Shown one piece after another: positions 1 to 7,365 of a stretch of 64,000 bases of DNA (position 1 is its first letter; each line of letters starts with the position of its first letter). Both the position numbers and the translations under genes were made by a program. The DNA is from Epilithonimonas sp. JDS (GTDB taxonomy: Bacteria > Bacteroidota > Bacteroidia > Flavobacteriales > Weeksellaceae), in the NCBI RefSeq assembly GCF_021261315.1, contig NZ_JAJSAX010000002.1, forward strand, positions 186,001-250,000, read 5' to 3'. Under the pieces are notes generated by a model. The model was not told where the DNA came from. It saw only the letters and a list, made by a program, of their open reading frames with translations, and made no database searches.

Positions 1-630
1 CAACAAACAGAAACTACTGCAAAAGACAGCATTTCCAAGTTGGACAAAGATGTAAATACAAACCGTTTGTATTGGATTATTGCAACTTTAGCAACCTTGC
101 TTTTAGGTGGTGTTTTATATTGGCTTTTAGGCAAACGTATAGCAACAAGCAAAACCGATGTAGAAACACAAATCAAAAACACCAAAAAATCTTTGGAAGA
201 AGAAAGCATTAAATTAGACAGCAAACTGGTGGAGGTGTTGGACACTCAATTGAAATTGAGACAAGAAGAAAAACAAATCGTTTCTGCAAATTCAACTATC
301 GAAATCGACCATTCTTTGGCTTTGAAAGTGGCTGATGAAATTGTTCGTATTCATAAAAATTTACAGCAAATGGATGTCAATACCAAAGGATTAAAACAAC
401 TTTCTGCATCTGTAAAAAGAATCCAAGACAATTTCGCTTCCAACGGTTATGAATTAGTTGAAATGCTTGGAAAAGAATACAACGAAGGAATGAAAGTAAT
501 AGCCAATTTTATTCCAAGCGAAGATATTGAAACAGGAAAACAAATTATTACAAGAATTATCAAACCTCAAGTTAATTTTAAAAACGAAATGATTCAATCT
601 GCACAAATTGAAGTCAGTGTAGGTGAATAA
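1..630 (+). CDS. Membrane-anchored coiled-coil protein with GrpE-like C-terminus (5' partial)
   Basis: The frame is open from base 1, so the true start is probably left of the window; a TTG at 40 is the only visible alternative. A single strong membrane segment (about visible residues 21-44) is followed by a long charged coiled coil (about 50-130) facing one compartment. The last 60 residues contain the pattern ITRIIKPQV then MIQSAQIEV, which resembles the small beta domain that ends GrpE nucleotide-exchange factors. The gene lies 12 bases before an Hsp70 homolog, the classical partner of GrpE. I infer a membrane-tethered exchange factor for that Hsp70. The GrpE assignment rests on pattern resemblance and context only; a plain structural coiled-coil protein is the alternative. 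Confidence 0.6.
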   Translation, partial: QQTETTAKDSISKLDKDVNTNRLYWIIATLATLLLGGVLYWLLGKRIATSKTDVETQIKNTKKSLEEESIKLDSKLVEVLDTQLKLRQEEKQIVSANSTIEIDHSLALKVADEIVRIHKNLQQMDVNTKGLKQLSASVKRIQDNFASNGYELVEMLGKEYNEGMKVIANFIPSEDIETGKQIITRIIKPQVNFKNEMIQSAQIEVSVGE

Positions 631-642
631 AAAAACAAAACT

Positions 643-3198
643 ATGGCAAGAACAAAAATAGATTATGGTATCGACTTAGGTACAACCAATTCCGCTATTT
701 CAAGAATGGAAAATGGAGAAATTATTATAAAAAAAACAGATTTAGGAAAAGACACAATGCCTTCTTGTGTATATTTTGACCCAAAAAAGGCTATTAAAGT
801 TGGTGACACCTCATACAATAGATTGAGAAATGACAAACTTAAAGCTATGAAAAATTGGAGTGATGAGGTTAATGTCTTTATCGAATTTAAACGAACCTTA
901 GGAACTGATAAAAAATACTCTAGTTCTAATTTGGGATTCTCTTTAAATTCAGAAGAATTGTCGGCAGAAGTTTTAAAAACATTAAAATCTTTTGTAAAAG
1001 ATGACCAGAATATCAACGCTGTTGTGATTACTGTTCCTGCTGCATTTGCAAATAATCAAAAAGAAGCTACTAGAGAAGCAGCAAAATTAGCTGGTTTTGA
1101 CCATATTGAATTATTGCAAGAGCCAGTAGCTGCTGCAATGGCTTATGGATTGGATAGCAAAAAGAAAAACGGCTATTGGTTGGTTTTCGACTTTGGAGGT
1201 GGAACCTTTGATGCGGCTTTACTGAAGGTAGAAGATGGAATTATGAAGGTTGCAGATACGGAAGGGGATAATTATTTAGGTGGTAAAAATTTAGATTTAG
1301 CAATTGTTGATGAAATTATTTTGCCTTATATCAAGGAAAATTATTCAATTGATTCCATTCTGGAGGATGATAATAAAAAGCAGATTTTGCGTAATGCAAT
1401 GAAATTTTATGCAGAAGAAGCTAAAATACAACTTTCGTTTAACGAAACACATAATGTACTATCTGATTTAGGAGATATTCCAGGCGAAGACGATAACGGA
1501 GAAGAATTTGAATTGGACATTACTGTTACACAACACGATATGGAAAGAGCATTAGCTCCTATTTTCCAAAAATCTATTGATATTTGTAAGAAACTTTTAG
1601 ATAGAAACAACTTAAAAGTTTCGTCTTTAGATTCTTTGATTTTGGTTGGCGGACCGACTTTTTCGCCTGTTGTTAGAAAAATGTTGGAGCAACAAATTTG
1701 TAAACCCGATACAAGCGTTGACCCAATGACAGTGGTTTCAAAAGGTGCGGCATTATATGCTTCAACTGTTGATATTTTAGAAGAAATCAAAGAACAAACA
1801 CGAGATAAATCAAAAATTCAAATCGAAATCGGACACGAAGCATCAACCGTAGAATTGGAAGAATTTGTTACGCTGAAAATACTAGCTGACAAGACGGATG
1901 GAAATATTCCCCAAAAAGTATTTGCAGAAATTAGCCAGAGTGGAATTGGAAGGGACTGGTCAAGCGGAAAAGTTGAAATCAATGAAATTGGCGAAGTGAT
2001 TGAAACTCATTTAAACGAAGGTAGGACTAATCGTTTTGTAGTTACATTATATGATGACAAAGGAAACATTTTAGAAAGTGAACCGAAAGAGTTTACGGTA
2101 ATTCAAGGTTCAAAAATCGGAAGTGCAACTTTGGCTTATAATATAGGTATTGAAATCAAGAAACGAGAAACGGGAAAAATTGTTTTTGAAACGGTGAAGA
2201 ACCTAGAAAAAAACAACTCTATTCCTGCTGTTGGCACAAGAAATGGGCTGAAAACACAAAAACAAATCCGCCCAGGAATGGATTCTGATTTTATTAAAAT
2301 TCCAATCTATGAAGGAGAACACGAAGCGGATGGAACGAGAGCTCTTTACAATAATCACGTAAAAGATATAATTATTAGTGGGTTAGATTTACCTGCATTA
2401 CTTCCGGAAAACAGTGATGTAGATTTAACTGTAAATGTAGATAGGTCAGAAAAGATTACCGTAACAGCCTATTTCCCTTACTTAGACTTTTCTTTTGAAG
2501 CCACTGTAGAAAGAACCGTTCAATCAGTAGAAACCAATTGGCTTTCTAATGAAATCCGAAAAGCAAAAGGAAGTATTGAAGAACTCAAAGAACAAGGAAT
2601 TCAAGAAGATAAAGTTCAGAAAATAGAAAGTGAAATTGCTGAGTTAGAAAAGAAATTTGAAAACAACAAAAATGATGCGGACAGCAAACAAGAAGTTTTG
2701 ACCAACCTTAGAAAAACGCTTAAATCCATTGATGAGTTAAGTGAAACCACAGAATGGCCAAAATTAGAAGAAGAACTAAAAGAGGAATTTTACAGATTAG
2801 AGAAAGTAAATAAGGACTTAGGGAATGATAAAACAACTCAAATTGTAAATCAATTACGAAACCAGCTGGAAGAAGTTTTGAAAACGCAAGACATAAAATT
2901 AGGTAAAGCGTTAGCAGAAGAAATTCATTCCGTATTCTTCCAAATGACTTTAGTATATCAATTGATTAACTTCATCAGACAACACAATCAAAATTTTGGT
3001 TCATACCATTGGAAAGATAGTAACAGAGCAAGACAATTGCTAAATGAAGGTTTGCAACAAATTGGAGAAAATCCAACATCAGAGGACTTACATCCCATTG
3101 TTATTAAATTAATCAATTTAATGGTTTCTGACCCAAGCAAGGCTTGTCCTTCTTGTGGTAAATTAGGTTGCAACAATGAATGTATTCTTGAAGGATAA
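643..3198 (+). CDS. Divergent Hsp70/DnaK-family chaperone with C-terminal cysteine knuckle
   Basis: An 851-residue Hsp70, longer than the usual ~640-residue DnaK. The nucleotide-binding domain is complete: IDLGTTNSA near residue 10, the phosphate loop FDFGGGTFD at 182-190 and the adenosine loop LVGGPTFSPV near 335. The middle is a divergent beta-rich substrate-binding-like region, then a charged coiled coil (about 630-760). The protein ends with four cysteines (835, 838, 843, 847; CxxC-x4-C-x3-C), a probable zinc knuckle absent from ordinary DnaK. It is flanked at 12 and 0 bases by a GrpE-like membrane protein and a kinase-AAA fusion, so it is a dedicated chaperone of this cassette rather than the housekeeping DnaK. 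Its client is unknown. Confidence 0.92.
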   Translation: MARTKIDYGIDLGTTNSAISRMENGEIIIKKTDLGKDTMPSCVYFDPKKAIKVGDTSYNRLRNDKLKAMKNWSDEVNVFIEFKRTLGTDKKYSSSNLGFSLNSEELSAEVLKTLKSFVKDDQNINAVVITVPAAFANNQKEATREAAKLAGFDHIELLQEPVAAAMAYGLDSKKKNGYWLVFDFGGGTFDAALLKVEDGIMKVADTEGDNYLGGKNLDLAIVDEIILPYIKENYSIDSILEDDNKKQILRNAMKFYAEEAKIQLSFNETHNVLSDLGDIPGEDDNGEEFELDITVTQHDMERALAPIFQKSIDICKKLLDRNNLKVSSLDSLILVGGPTFSPVVRKMLEQQICKPDTSVDPMTVVSKGAALYASTVDILEEIKEQTRDKSKIQIEIGHEASTVELEEFVTLKILADKTDGNIPQKVFAEISQSGIGRDWSSGKVEINEIGEVIETHLNEGRTNRFVVTLYDDKGNILESEPKEFTVIQGSKIGSATLAYNIGIEIKKRETGKIVFETVKNLEKNNSIPAVGTRNGLKTQKQIRPGMDSDFIKIPIYEGEHEADGTRALYNNHVKDIIISGLDLPALLPENSDVDLTVNVDRSEKITVTAYFPYLDFSFEATVERTVQSVETNWLSNEIRKAKGSIEELKEQGIQEDKVQKIESEIAELEKKFENNKNDADSKQEVLTNLRKTLKSIDELSETTEWPKLEEELKEEFYRLEKVNKDLGNDKTTQIVNQLRNQLEEVLKTQDIKLGKALAEEIHSVFFQMTLVYQLINFIRQHNQNFGSYHWKDSNRARQLLNEGLQQIGENPTSEDLHPIVIKLINLMVSDPSKACPSCGKLGCNNECILEG

Positions 3199-4962
3199 AT
3201 GAGTAACACGAAATCTATATTAACAAAAGGTCAAATCATTGACAACAAATATTCGGTTAGCTTCTTTCTGAAAAAAGGAAGCTATGCCGAAACTTATCGT
3301 GTGCAAAACGAAGCTAAAGAAACGAAATTTCTAAAACTTTTTGACTTTTCGAAATTGCATCGTACACAGTTTACAGAAAGCGGAGATATTTTGGAAATCG
3401 AAATACTAAAACAAATCAAACATTCCAATTTAGTAAAGTACAGCGATGATGGAAATATCGTAATTGACAACCAAAAATTGGCTTATGTAGTGTTGGATTT
3501 TGTAAGTGGCGAAACTTTAGCAGATAAAATGAAACGTGAGAACACGCTGAATTTATATGAAGCAAAAAATATTATTTTAAGTGTTTTAAATGGTTTGAAT
3601 AATTTACACAACAAACAAATCATACACAACGACATTACCAACCAAAATGTAATGTTAGACTTATCAGGTAAAGTCGCCATTCCTAAAATCATAGATTTTG
3701 GTTATGCTCGGTTCTTAAAACAATCGAATAAAGATTTTTTAAAAGACGGTTTGAATTTATTTTATACAGCAAATGAAACTTTTAATAAAGTCTTTTCATT
3801 CCAAAGTGATATTTATTCTGTAGGTGCATTGTATTATCAATTATTGACAGGTCTTCCACCCTATTTTGTAGAAATCTCAAAATATAAATCCGATAAAATA
3901 CAATTAGAGGATGTTATTTTAGATGAGCGAAAAAAGCCTTTAAAGTTTTCTGACAAGATTGACGAACGGACACAAAACATCATAAAGAAAGCATTACAAC
4001 CAAAAGCAGAAAACCGTTTTAAATCTGTAAAAGAATTTATTCAAACATTGAACGGAGAACTGGAAGTTGAGCTTTCAATTCCATCAGAAAAATTTGCCAA
4101 AGTTCAGCCCAAAGAAATTAAGAAAGGAAAAGGATTTTCAGCCATTGCAGGAATGCAAGAACTGAAAGACACCATACAGTTAGATGTGATTGATGCTTTG
4201 AATCATAAAGAAAGGTACGCAGAATACGGCTTGACTATTCCGAACGGTATGTTATTGTACGGTCCGCCAGGTTGCGGAAAGACTTTTTTTGCGGAGAAAA
4301 TGGCAGAAGAAATCGGCTTTAATTTTTATCAAATAAAACCTTCTGACATTCAAAGTAAATGGGTTAATGCTTCGCAGGAAAATATTAAAAATTTGTTTGA
4401 TGAAGCAAAACAAAACGCACCAAGTATCATTTTTATTGACGAATTAGATGCACTTGTTCCAAACAGAGATACATCAAACATAAGCCATATGAACACTAGT
4501 GCCGTAAATGAATTTTTAGCACAAATGAATAATTGCGGAGAAGACGGAATTTTTATTGTTGGTGCTACAAACAGACCAAATGCTATTGACCCAGCAATTT
4601 TACGTTCAGGAAGACTGGACAAACACATTTATTTGCCACCGCCGGACTTTGAAGCTCGAAAATTGATGTTTGAATTGTACTTAAAAAAACGTCCGACAGA
4701 AATCGGTTTGAATTACGAAGAACTAGCAAAGTCAACAGAAAACTATGTTTCAAGCGACATCAAATTTCTATGTGATGAAGCTTCAAGAAAAGCTTTGAAA
4801 GAAAGTGTAAGAATAACAAACGTTATTGTTTTGGAAACAATTAGAAATAACAAACCATCGGTTTCTTTACAGGAATTGAACAGCTATTTAGTAATTAGAG
4901 CTAAAATGGAAAGAGCAGAAAATAACAATCCTCAAGATAATAAAATTGGCTTCCGAAAATGA
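3199..4962 (+). CDS. Hanks-type Ser/Thr kinase fused to Cdc48/FtsH-type AAA ATPase
   Basis: The ATG directly follows the stop codon of the Hsp70 gene. Residues 20-285 form a eukaryotic-like kinase: glycine loop KKGSYAETY, probable ATP lysine K46, catalytic loop HND (143-145) with the catalytic Asp and N150, and an intact DFG (166-168). The HRD arginine is Asn and the APE motif is degenerate (ANE). Residues 312-545 form an AAA domain with Walker A GPPGCGKT (355-362), Walker B IIFIDELD (410-417), sensor-1 GATNRP and arginine-finger region LRSGRLD (468-474). All key ATPase residues are present. A kinase and a remodelling ATPase in one chain, next to Hsp70, suggests phosphorylation-controlled protein disaggregation or unfolding. 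Substrate unknown. Confidence 0.93.
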   Translation: MSNTKSILTKGQIIDNKYSVSFFLKKGSYAETYRVQNEAKETKFLKLFDFSKLHRTQFTESGDILEIEILKQIKHSNLVKYSDDGNIVIDNQKLAYVVLDFVSGETLADKMKRENTLNLYEAKNIILSVLNGLNNLHNKQIIHNDITNQNVMLDLSGKVAIPKIIDFGYARFLKQSNKDFLKDGLNLFYTANETFNKVFSFQSDIYSVGALYYQLLTGLPPYFVEISKYKSDKIQLEDVILDERKKPLKFSDKIDERTQNIIKKALQPKAENRFKSVKEFIQTLNGELEVELSIPSEKFAKVQPKEIKKGKGFSAIAGMQELKDTIQLDVIDALNHKERYAEYGLTIPNGMLLYGPPGCGKTFFAEKMAEEIGFNFYQIKPSDIQSKWVNASQENIKNLFDEAKQNAPSIIFIDELDALVPNRDTSNISHMNTSAVNEFLAQMNNCGEDGIFIVGATNRPNAIDPAILRSGRLDKHIYLPPPDFEARKLMFELYLKKRPTEIGLNYEELAKSTENYVSSDIKFLCDEASRKALKESVRITNVIVLETIRNNKPSVSLQELNSYLVIRAKMERAENNNPQDNKIGFRK

Positions 4963-5258
4963 CCATCATCAAACTCATCCTCGCCACCCTCCTCCTACTC
5001 TGTCTTCTAAAAATGCCCTACGGCTACTACCAACTCGTGCGGTTTATCAGCTTTGTAGGTTTCGGATACTTGGCATTTGAAGCAAACAAAAACAAAGATG
5101 AGAAAATGGTTATTGCATTTATCGCTTTAGCACTATTGTTTCAGCCATTTATAAAAATTGCACTCGGCAGATTTATTTGGAATATTATAGATGTGGTGGT
5201 TGCAGTATTTCTAATTATTTCAATTTTAAAAAATAAAAAAAACCATGAAAAAAATTAA
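4959..5258 (+). CDS. Small membrane protein, DUF6804-like
   Basis: A 99-residue protein with about four hydrophobic segments and a basic tail. It starts inside the stop of the kinase-AAA gene (ATGA overlap), so it is translationally coupled to it. The pattern MPYGYYQLVRF near the first segment and ALGRFIWNIIDV near the last match, from memory, the small DUF6804 membrane proteins, which have no known function. The first ~90 bases are noticeably C-rich compared with the surrounding AT-rich DNA. In this operon it may be a membrane partner of the chaperone/kinase module, but similar proteins also occur as stand-alone genes. Confidence 0.7.
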   Translation: MTIIKLILATLLLLCLLKMPYGYYQLVRFISFVGFGYLAFEANKNKDEKMVIAFIALALLFQPFIKIALGRFIWNIIDVVVAVFLIISILKNKKNHEKN

Positions 5259-5877
5259 TTTGGTAACAGTTCTTAGCTTATCACTTCTCTCTTGCACACA
5301 AAAAGAAGGAACAAATTTTAATGAAACGAATATCATTCATGATAGTACTTCTTCAGTTAACAATTATGAAAACGTAACGCCTCAAGAAACTGAAGAAGAA
5401 AAAAAAATCCGTAAAAATAATGAAGAAAAACTTCGAAAGGAAAAAGAAGCGGAACAACTGTATGGGAATAATTCATTGGAAACCGGCGCTACTCCTTACT
5501 CCAAATATTATGGTGACAATTCAGATTGCGAAGATCGAGGATGTTCAAAAATCAATGTAACGGCCAGTAATTCTGATGTTCTAGTTACCATTAAAAAGAA
5601 TGATGAGGTCGTTCGCCACGCTTATATTCAAGCAGGAGACAGCTACACTTTTTCTTTTCCAAACGGAACTTACCAAGCTTTTTTCTATTATGGAAAAGGT
5701 TGGAACCCAAACAAAGTCATGAAAAATGGAGAACTAGAGGGTGGTTTCGTATCAAACGAAGAAGTAGGGAAAGATGACCCTCAATCATTGTTTAATAATA
5801 TTTTGGAGTATGAATTGGTCTTGCAACAAAATGGAAATTTCAGCACTCGTCCCAGTAATATAGAGGAAGCACTCTGA
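5245..5877 (+). CDS. Lipoprotein of unknown function
   Basis: A 210-residue protein with a lipoprotein signal peptide (lipobox LLSC at residue ~17), then a charged, Glu/Lys-rich helical linker (about 45-75) and a compact C-terminal domain. The C-terminal domain has two close cysteines (CEDRGC) and beta-rich sequence (VLVTIKKNDEVVRHAYI, YTFSFPNGTYQAFFYYG). This kind of domain occurs in other Bacteroidota lipoproteins but I cannot name the family. Its start overlaps the end of the preceding gene by 14 bases, so it is the last gene of the Hsp70/kinase-AAA operon, just before a terminator. It probably sits in the envelope. Confidence 0.8.
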   Translation: MKKINLVTVLSLSLLSCTQKEGTNFNETNIIHDSTSSVNNYENVTPQETEEEKKIRKNNEEKLRKEKEAEQLYGNNSLETGATPYSKYYGDNSDCEDRGCSKINVTASNSDVLVTIKKNDEVVRHAYIQAGDSYTFSFPNGTYQAFFYYGKGWNPNKVMKNGELEGGFVSNEEVGKDDPQSLFNNILEYELVLQQNGNFSTRPSNIEEAL

Positions 5878-5970
5878 AAGAAGAGATATCTCAAAAAAAT
5901 AGAGCTGTCAGAAAAACTTAAATCAAAACTCCTTTTGATCATTAAAAAACCACAGCTAGCAATAATTTGA

Positions 5971-6006
5971 AAATCCCATTAGACACTCAGCCGAATGGGA
6001 TTTTTT
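5971..6006 (+). terminator. Rho-independent terminator of the Hsp70/kinase-AAA operon
   Basis: Perfect 10-bp stem AAATCCCATT / AATGGGATTT with a 13-base loop, followed by T6. It lies 93 bases after the lipoprotein stop and marks the end of the cassette. Confidence 0.85.
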
Positions 6007-6632
6007 GATTATTTTTTGATTGAATTAAATTCTGAACCCGCCAGAAACTGAGAAAACTGGAAGTTGGTCATCTCCAATCCAATTTTAGCTGGTAGTGGTG
6101 GAAAATCTTCGGTAAAGACGCAAAAATATCCGGATTGCTCCGCGCAGAGATTTGCGCAATTGTAAGGGATTTATGGAGAAGCGAACAAGTCTGCACAATC
6201 CTCAATCTAAATGGTTTTATCTGCGTACTCTGCTCTCTTCTGACCATTCATCAGACTTATTTGGTAATATGTTCTTCTATTATAGGGCATTCCTATCTTC
6301 GAAGTACAGTTCTAGGAAAGCTCAGAAATATCAAAAATATTGAAATGATCAACGTCTTTGTTGATATTATCCGTCAAAAACCAATTGATGTCCAGACAAC
6401 TTTCTCATAAAATATCCTTGTAAAATTCTTTGATGGTAATTGAATTCATCTAGTTGTAAAAATCAAAGAAAGTGATTTTGAAGTCTCGTCGATATAATTG
6501 GTATATCGACTTTTAATAAATTGTGTACATAAACCTATTAATGCATAAAGGCAAAAAAAAATTAGTTCAGTTTTATCCAAATCATCAATTGAAATGATAA
6601 ATTCTTAATTTAATGAAAATAAAATTTCACTT
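6007..6632. other. Gene-free decay zone
   Basis: No convincing gene on either strand over about 630 bases. An open frame of 91 codons on the plus strand (6135-6410) has Cys/Ile/Leu-rich, unrecognisable sequence and overlaps another short frame. One perfect hairpin is present at 6488-6510 (arms GTCGATATA / TATATCGAC, loop ATTGG) followed by TTTTAAT, possibly the terminator of a vanished gene. The stretch lies between the end of an accessory operon and a truncated gene, so I read it as eroded sequence. Confidence 0.5.
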
Positions 6633-6812
6633 ATGGATATGATAGGAAATCTGCTTCGGGTAACAAGGTCTGAGCTCGAAGATTATTTGAAAGACAGTTT
6701 ACTATTGGAAGACAAAATCTTTGATGACGAAACTGAAACTGAAAATCTGACCGACATTAAAAGATTTTCTAAATATATAAATTGTAGAGTACTCCGAAAA
6801 TTAACTTGTTGA
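6633..6812 (+). pseudogene. Truncated DUF1877 (YfbM-like) gene fragment
   Basis: An ATG-initiated frame of 59 codons reads MDMIGNLLRVTRSELEDYL and continues with LLEDKIF. This is the typical N-terminus of DUF1877/YfbM-like proteins (normally about 160 residues). After about 40 residues the resemblance fades and the frame stops at TGA (6810-6812). The rest of the family's conserved domain is not found downstream. Only the 5' quarter remains, so this is a gene remnant, consistent with the surrounding decay. Confidence 0.6.
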
Positions 6813-6910
6813 ATAAAACCTAACTACAAATTTTTAATAGCGGGCGGAAAATTTCCAATTTACATTTCGTGCATTCCTCAAAATTTGTACTTTTAGTTAA
6901 AAGAAAAACA

Positions 6911-7273
6911 ATGAAAGAAACGGATCAACACAACGAAAGAATTGCAAAAATGACCTTTGCTTCCGTTTATCCCCATTACAAAACTAAAGTTGAAAAAAAG
7001 GGACGAACATTGGAGGAACTGGAGCAAGTCATTGAATGGTTGACAGGTTTTGATTACAAAAAAATTCAGGAACTCATTGATCAGAAAGTAACCCTCGAAA
7101 CTTTTTTTGATCTTGCAAAACTTCATCCCAATGCAGAACTGATCAAAGGAACAATCTGCGGATACAAGATCGAAGAAATCGAAAATCCTTTGACAAAAAA
7201 GACAAGATACCTCGATAAGCTGATTGATGAATTGGCAAAAGGAAAAAAAATGGACAAAATTTTAAGACAGTAA
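6911..7273 (+). CDS. DUF2200 family protein
   Basis: A 120-residue soluble protein. The reading KMTFASVYPHYKTKVEKKGR followed by a helix with EELEQVIEWLTGFD is characteristic of DUF2200, a small conserved family of unknown function common in Bacteroidota and Proteobacteria. An upstream in-frame ATG at 6869 exists, but the residues it would add are not part of the family, so I chose 6911. The stop overlaps the ATG of a truncated VOC gene (TAATGATG), showing that the two were once a coupled pair. Length is normal and no lesion is seen. Confidence 0.85.
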   Translation: MKETDQHNERIAKMTFASVYPHYKTKVEKKGRTLEELEQVIEWLTGFDYKKIQELIDQKVTLETFFDLAKLHPNAELIKGTICGYKIEEIENPLTKKTRYLDKLIDELAKGKKMDKILRQ

Positions 7274-7365
7274 TGATGGCAAAACAAATTTTTATCAATC
7301 TCGCAGTGAAGGACCTTGAAAAATCTATTCATATTTTTGGCTTTATTACATTCCAAATTTATTAG
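7273..7365 (+). pseudogene. Truncated VOC/glyoxalase-like gene fragment
   Basis: The frame starts MMAKQIFINLAVKDLEKS, the standard first strand and turn of vicinal-oxygen-chelate proteins (FINLPVKDLEKS type). It loses resemblance after about residue 19 and stops at TAG (7363-7365). Family members have about 130 residues. The break near base 7330 marks the junction with the accessory genes that follow. The start is coupled to the DUF2200 stop. Confidence 0.65.

Follow-up and report, generated by a model that had tools for sequence, protein, structure and literature searches.

An accessory Hsp70 operon in Bacteroidota with a transmembrane GrpE-like protein, a kinase-AAA fusion, and an exchanged GrpE-Hsp70 cassette

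The nearest published theme that we found for the locus analyzed here is the GAP1-N2 group of DO-GTPase conflict neighborhoods, which in the excerpted account is associated with HSP70, GrpE, and DnaJ-FNIII and described chiefly in actinobacteria and firmicutes (Kaur et al., 2020, PMC7159879). A second link between chaperones and conflict is bNACHT25, described in the excerpts of its paper as sensing phage infection through host DnaJ/DnaK (PMC12169576), while the excerpts of a third paper contain no mention of Hsp70, GrpE, or DnaJ (PMC10907252). Among the PADLOC models, the PD-T4-6 and MAD6 kinases match the kinase half of the fusion protein described below and the AAA protein IetA matches its AAA half, each model covering one half of the fusion and none including chaperone partners. 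Word searches of open-access papers, a set that excludes most subscription journals and bioRxiv, returned no description of the operon that we recognized and no paper containing "CFI-box" or "DUF6804". As far as the searched literature goes, the operon is an undescribed, real variant of the Hsp70 machinery with an unusual exchanged core.

The operon begins just left of a stretch of 64,000 nucleotides from Epilithonimonas sp. JDS (the window; negative positions lie upstream of it). It resembles the canonical DnaK-DnaJ-GrpE system in an Hsp70 whose NBD is nearest to DnaK, a GrpE-like fold, and a J-like N-terminus, and differs from it in that the GrpE-like protein is transmembrane and falls under the Pfam cut-off, the J-like part has no HPD motif, the Hsp70 probably carries an extra beta-rich stretch, a fused kinase-AAA protein is present, and the whole set is accessory and mobile. 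With the GAP1-N2 theme, as excerpted, it has in common a predicted conflict operon in which an Hsp70 is accompanied by a GrpE of its own and by a repeat protein bearing DnaJ; unlike that theme, its GrpE-like protein is membrane-bound, the kinase-AAA belongs to it alone, and it is found in Bacteroidota (PMC7159879). No DO-GTPase or GAP1 was recognized when the proteins of the operon were scanned. The likeness to bNACHT25, again judged from excerpts, lies in the proposed use of chaperones in phage sensing, whereas the set encoded here is private and contains no NACHT protein, although one adjoins the divergent locus L066 (PMC12169576).

The ORF list of the window gives five co-directional genes with gaps of 12, 0, -4, and -14 bases, just as and where an earlier note on this DNA had placed them. 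Gene 1 is truncated by the window edge and encodes 299 aa in full. Further members had been expected to the left, and the upstream stretch (L056) indeed contains a sixth gene 5' of gene 1, encoding a 546-aa J-like/TPR protein, overlapping gene 1 by 4 bases and pointing away from glgB. The order is J-like/TPR, transmembrane GrpE-like, Hsp70, kinase-AAA, DUF6804, and lipoprotein, followed by a hairpin and a T run (Table 1). This hairpin agrees with the terminator claimed earlier, but a terminator scan with a loop limit of 8 bases called none at the end of the unit. Because the genome also has separate canonical dnaK, grpE, and dnaJ genes, the operon is an additional chaperone set.

Table 1. Features of the operon, in window coordinates (L056, upstream stretch)
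Feature	Position	Strand	Basis
J-like/TPR protein, 546 aa, with CFI-box C-terminus	-1906 to -266; L056 16094-17734	+	CFI box NF041770, E=1e-22
Transmembrane coiled-coil/GrpE-like gene, 3' part in window	1-630 (whole: -269 to 630; L056 17731-18630)	+	ORF and fold
Hsp70	643-3198	+	PF00012, alignment
Hanks-type kinase (residues 1-300) fused to Cdc48/FtsH/katanin-type AAA ATPase (310-587)	3199-4962	+	Pfam
DUF6804 small membrane protein	4959-5258	+	PF20619, 1.7e-33
Lipoprotein, no assigned function	5245-5877	+	LLSC lipobox by eye; often adjoins DUF6804
Intrinsic-terminator-like hairpin closing the unit	5960-6012	+	Folding -15.9 kcal/mol, z -4.59, then T run

Four core genes (J-like/TPR, GrpE-like, Hsp70, and kinase-AAA) occur in one order in all 27 loci where the kinase-AAA is nearly full-length and the upstream sequence suffices, so that the gene order proposed as a check in the earlier note proved to be conserved. 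These loci comprise the window, 21 of the loci L006-L033, the divergent loci L063-L066 found through the GrpE-like protein, and plasmid pHALHY02 (L071). Identity of the core falls to 22-41% in the divergent loci, the four core proteins of the most divergent, L066, being 22, 32, 41, and 38% identical, respectively. A pattern scan of species genomes for close kinase-AAA relatives had given 49 loci: in 28 the kinase part matches at 66-91% identity (L006-L033), in 20 only the AAA part does, at 36-43% (L034-L053), and one is the fragment L054. All four core genes are present in 21 of the 29 loci L006-L033 and L054; six (L011, L013, L014, L019, L022, and L025) are cut by contig ends, L012, on a short contig, has its kinase-AAA in two pieces and a different gene 5' of it, and L054 retains, with ample upstream sequence, kinase-AAA residues 6-71 only, the other core genes being absent. 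L026 and L024 have all four core genes, with the J gene in three and two pieces, respectively. The records of L006-L033 are named Bacteroidota, save two short MAG contigs named Oceanicaulis and Bdellovibrio, which we take to be binning errors. The AAA-only relatives L034-L053 (n=20) were set aside as having no J-like or GrpE-like partner (blastp, 1e-4); in one of them, L046, an Hsp70 (33%) lies on the opposite strand at a distance of about 5 kb. Viral contigs gave two weak AAA matches, and phage records six matches, all confined to the NBD.

The periphery is looser. DUF6804 and the lipoprotein shift position or are missing between loci, and 17 of the 28 loci L006-L033 have, 3' of the kinase-AAA, a TerB-like gene that is missing in the window; its product scores 17.3 bits against 24.4 for PF05099, and the pHALHY02 copy is annotated as TerB family. 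That the genes are coincidental neighbors with generic annotations, sharing no common machine, would draw on this looseness and on the wide occurrence of DUF6804, found in 93 of 395 genomes as opposed to 6 of 395 for the GrpE-like protein. Such an explanation is contradicted for the core, whose four genes keep their order across 27 loci even where identity is as low as 22-41%, and we consider it barely credible. Elsewhere, DUF6804 is accompanied by TerB-like and other genes. In L237 (7501-10585), L238 (7312-10372), and L239 (7410-10318) it belongs to another conserved unit, whose further genes encode a small protein resembling TerB (by eye), a membrane protein with a coiled coil, and a lipoprotein-like product.

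Protein 1 has, by eye, a signal peptide, a coiled coil, a transmembrane segment at about residues 113-133 with positive charge after it, another coiled coil, and, at about residues 192-299, the GrpE-like domain; this arrangement would place the first coiled coil outside and the C-terminal domain inside the cell. The AlphaFold model (mean pLDDT 76.6, pTM 0.39) shows the GrpE order of elements, with a long helix, short helices, and a C-terminal beta domain. In a Foldseek search of the PDB, ranks 1-9 are GrpE, as judged by entry title and chain length (best E=4.5e-3, probability 0.96), which speaks against protein 1 being unrelated to GrpE; none of these matches reaches E<0.001, and the query TM-scores of 0.18-0.24 are low, which we attribute to the long helix. 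The GrpE-like C-terminus proposed earlier thus stands by fold, but its sequence does not reach the Pfam cut-off: PF01025 scores 9.9 bits against 25.8 on the in-window part and is unlisted in the scan of the whole protein, and GrpE is absent among the 44 matches of a PDB sequence search. In hhalign, the GrpE-like domain alone matches canonical GrpE at 9.6-32.6%, the controls of the 9.6% run giving at most 1.15%. Taken together, the fold supports a resemblance to GrpE, sequence alone does so weakly, and nucleotide exchange is a predicted activity.

Additional evidence comes from smaller, soluble relatives. In L235 (genome G310), a J-like protein (by eye), a soluble protein of 115 aa, a related Hsp70, a TerB-like protein, and DUF6804 follow one another, with no kinase-AAA, and in another five genomes (L254-L258), as well as on plasmid pSDM007 (L253), a related Hsp70 is preceded by a soluble protein of 95-117 aa, which makes six genomes and a conjugative plasmid of Pseudomonas hygromyciniae. 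These mini-GrpE proteins occupy the position of the transmembrane GrpE-like protein. In hhalign comparisons, all run with no control, the match between the mini-GrpE profile and the GrpE-like domain of protein 1 is at 94%, and the two joined match canonical GrpE at 86.4% (P=4.7e-6), whereas either one singly does so at 33%; Pfam recognized GrpE in none of the five soluble proteins scanned. A third protein weakly like the J-like protein of L235 (22-24%, E from 5e-5 to 1.5e-8) adjoins the pair in L253, L257, and L258, and no relative of it was detected beside the pair in L254-L256. On pSDM007 (L253, 9510-14490), the unit consists of a TPR protein, the soluble mini-GrpE, and the Hsp70, and two PAPS-reductase-like genes lie nearby.

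The Hsp70 is recognized by PF00012 (E=1.2e-66) over residues 9-374 only, and for its NBD (residues 1-375) DnaK is the closest relative. In the alignment, the ATPase stretches DLGTTNS, EP, and GGGT are invariant or at least 90% conserved, and the hydrophobic VLLL-type stretch, which we take to be the Hsp70 inter-domain linker motif, is absent, by eye, after the NBD. The remainder consists of a probable extra beta-rich stretch at about residues 385-490, a probable SBD-beta-like part at about 491-625, and a helical C-terminal part. Pfam did not recognize a substrate-binding beta domain in the protein; in hhalign, residues 491-625 match the DnaK substrate domain weakly (19.6%) and colinearly, and six control windows gave at most 0.73%. 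A Cys4 knuckle, reported in the earlier note, is present in the window's Hsp70 but in only two of 26 Hsp70 rows, and was ruled out as a conserved feature. In L022 (3260-5887) and L023 (7552-10008), a second Hsp70 with altered phosphate-binding loops lies right behind the intact one and is perhaps a non-hydrolyzing partner.

The kinase-AAA protein is, as the earlier note had read it, a Hanks kinase fused to an intact AAA ATPase, with Pfam matches to Pkinase (5.2e-36), AAA (7.4e-39), and the lid (2.7e-8). The AAA part holds Walker A/B, sensor, and arginine fingers and the aromatic pore loop SKWVNAS. Across 27 rows including the window, the kinase lysine, catalytic-loop, and DFG positions and the AAA Walker, sensor, and arginine-finger positions, whose catalytic and other roles we assume to be the usual ones, are invariant or at least 90% conserved. 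Among the loci examined, the fusion was found only in this operon and its fragments. The two halves can differ in history (L008, L017, and L026); L008 and L026 share 78-98% identity over the kinase half and 50-78% over the AAA half.

The first gene product is called J-like, not a J protein. In hhalign, its N-terminus matches helices I-II of 31 ordinary J domains with a probability of 34% (21 close rows), rising to 62-68% over 17-22 columns when five divergent rows are added, compared with 5.65% for the best other window of the protein tested; the HPD motif is absent in all 26 rows (21 aligned close and five divergent), and the N-terminal likeness is tentative. Beyond the N-terminus, the predicted model shows a helical solenoid, for which Foldseek returned unspecific solenoids only, none under E=0.001, and a PDB sequence search gave no matches. 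Among the 21 rows, five end in a CFI box and five in a third type of C-terminus that shares a VDW motif, and the other 11 end mostly in a likely membrane helix (by eye). The J-like proteins of L006-L033 have at least three unrelated C-termini.

A feature that is new in this analysis concerns the history of the core. The comparison of distance matrices across 22 loci shows that the GrpE-like domain has been exchanged together with Hsp70 residues 1 to about 700, as a single cassette whose history is separate from that of the rest of the operon (the chassis). In Mantel tests with 1,999 permutations, for which p=0.0005 is the smallest possible value, the distances of the GrpE-like domain correlate with those of the Hsp70 NBD (rho 0.91, p=0.0005) but not with those of the other half of protein 1 (rho 0.13, p=0.11), the kinase-AAA (rho 0.10, p=0.17), or the Hsp70 tail at residues 700-840 (rho 0.01, p=0.43). 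The other half of protein 1 and the Hsp70 tail themselves correlate with the kinase-AAA (rho 0.57 and 0.49, respectively; both p=0.0005). When the 22 loci are divided into two or three clusters, the classes of the GrpE-like domain and the NBD are identical (adjusted Rand 1.0; four clusters, 0.88). Kinase-AAA proteins are at least 85% identical in 42 pairs of loci, and in 26 of these the GrpE-like domains are at most 55% identical; among all 231 pairs, 24 show the reverse pattern by at least 10 points. Identity profiles of 18 chosen pairs and sliding correlation place the breaks at about residue 200 of protein 1 and about residues 640-720 of the Hsp70.

Trees, built with a quick method, give the same picture. 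In the cassette tree, every class is one side of a branch, whereas on the chassis tree the classes require seven changes instead of the minimum of two, a value as low as which was seen in 5 of 200 shuffles. AU tests were applied to groups named after the data had been seen, and in the chassis tree L029 sits on a long branch. The tests reject a chassis clade for class B (p=2.7e-54) and for class C (p=8.9e-6), and a cassette clade for the window-type chassis (p=1.3e-55). Because the cassette is one contiguous stretch of DNA, exchange alone explains the covariation; the GrpE-like domain and the Hsp70 may also be in physical contact. The cassette would be the specificity part of the operon, diversified as expected in conflict with phages or plasmids.

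The distribution of the operon is patchy, which agrees with the accessory locus proposed earlier. The kinase-AAA was found in two of 98 genomes and the GrpE-like protein in six of 395, the source genome included in both counts. Five of these six genomes contain the operon; it was not seen in G307, where L067 (1-3969), at a contig end, encodes a weakly GrpE-like protein (28%) and, in a gene of its own, a kinase. The left flank, glgB, is present in all 23 genomes of the genus, again including the source genome. When the site was followed in five genomes of the genus, the right flank was reached in two, both with other cargo between the same flanks; one of the other three is cut by a contig end and two stop short of the right flank, and no clean empty site was seen in the five. 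Between the operon and the conserved right flank (window 6100-7300) there are short ORFs only, as in a decayed or exchanged hot spot. In the same hot spot of genome G021 (L097, 4536-10116), the cargo ends in a DUF6804-lipoprotein pair 74 and 69% identical to that of the window and also includes a P-loop protein, a 517-aa unrecognized protein, and a retropepsin-like protease. The P-loop protein has sub-threshold matches (AAA_23, 19.5 bits; DO-GTPase1, 18.1 against 27 bits), and the unit is possibly a divergent GTPase-centered conflict system that ends in the same way as the operon of the window.

The core is also carried by plasmid pHALHY02 and the small form by the conjugative plasmid pSDM007. 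Chaperones aid the replication of some plasmids, and the operon could be a module for the maintenance, transfer, or interference of mobile elements, adding to plasmid or ICE fitness; the genes upstream in L008 and L009, read by eye as mobilisation genes, and MobC_2 in two of 145 flank proteins would fit. We regard this as rather unlikely, given that such an Hsp70 occurs in only two of 72,556 plasmid records at E<=1e-70 and that the copy in the window is chromosomal, in a hot spot adjoining glgB.

Defense genes adjoin the operon in single loci: BREX genes in one, a NACHT-FGE protein with a sub-threshold DUF4062 match in L066, GmrSD in L006, and genes read as type I restriction in L064. For a broader comparison, the nearest ORFs of 100 aa or more, no more than three per side, and a few inside the loci were collected (145 proteins; six from L068, which appears to be the same contig as L009, each having 75,677 bases, were left out), and 117 control proteins were taken from 20 arbitrary 20-kb stretches of single-contig genomes, after trimming from 160 to 157 (proteins over 1,650 aa removed) and then to 117 (first and last protein of each locus removed). 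PADLOC matched 195 families in the flanks and 126 in the control, and in the family comparison, made from the best 25 of each, families such as MTase_I (PDLC03035; two against two) and mad2 (three against three members) were matched in both alike; between the 145 flank and 117 control proteins, compared with no per-locus count, no defense enrichment among neighbors was shown. For the five window proteins themselves, PADLOC 2.0 matched the kinase half and the AAA half separately and the Hsp70 tail marginally, with no system-level match among these five. The conflict system suggested in the earlier note therefore draws support from mobility, alternative cargo, and single-locus defense neighbors, but not from the PADLOC neighbor comparison.

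The main rival is an accessory chaperone for envelope quality control or stress, in which the GrpE-like protein would sense envelope damage, the Hsp70 and AAA proteins would clear damaged membrane proteins, and mobility would reflect niche adaptation. The same anatomy fits it, Pfam-type scans recognized no toxin or nuclease in the proteins of the operon, and defense-neighbor enrichment was not shown. Moreover, the mini-GrpE/Hsp70 pair adjoins gldK-N-like genes in G180 and G403, which belong to one genus, and lies near a cbpA-like gene in G113 (all by eye), so that the small form may be a housekeeping chaperone. Against it stand the patchy, hot-spot-borne distribution of the operon, the BREX and other defense genes adjoining single loci, and, in our judgment, the repeated exchange of the cassette, which would be unusual for such a chaperone. 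We think it doubtful, though deserving of serious consideration.

In conflict systems it is typical for a single recognition-like module to be exchanged repeatedly. Our preferred reading, to which we give about an even chance, is a dedicated mobile chaperone machine with an exchanged specificity cassette, used for sensing and remodeling, perhaps in conflict with phages or plasmids. The membrane-tethered protein remodeling suggested earlier fits its anatomy, which, like the exchange, was established computationally; the gating by phosphorylation suggested in the same note is putative, and the direction of the signal, the client, and the output are proposed as follows. A change on the envelope side at the transmembrane coiled coil, or the load of clients, would alter the nucleotide state or exchange of the paired private Hsp70, to which the J-like/TPR protein would bring clients. 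The kinase-AAA would phosphorylate and thread those caught by the substrate domain of the Hsp70, DUF6804 and the lipoprotein might act as partner or effector at the membrane, and foreign or damaged protein complexes would be removed or marked as a result. A more specific and more tentative proposal is that the operon represents a new class of immune or conflict receptor, whose interchangeable specificity module is the Hsp70 paired with its own transmembrane exchange factor and in which client capture leads to phosphorylation and unfolding by the kinase-AAA.

If this is true, a nucleotide-exchange factor would serve as a transmembrane receptor and the Hsp70-GrpE pair as a swappable recognition cartridge, and we know of neither in described chaperone systems. 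The loci would also provide a natural set of paired GrpE-Hsp70 alleles for the study of partner specificity, and the operon would be a candidate for chaperone-based phage sensing.
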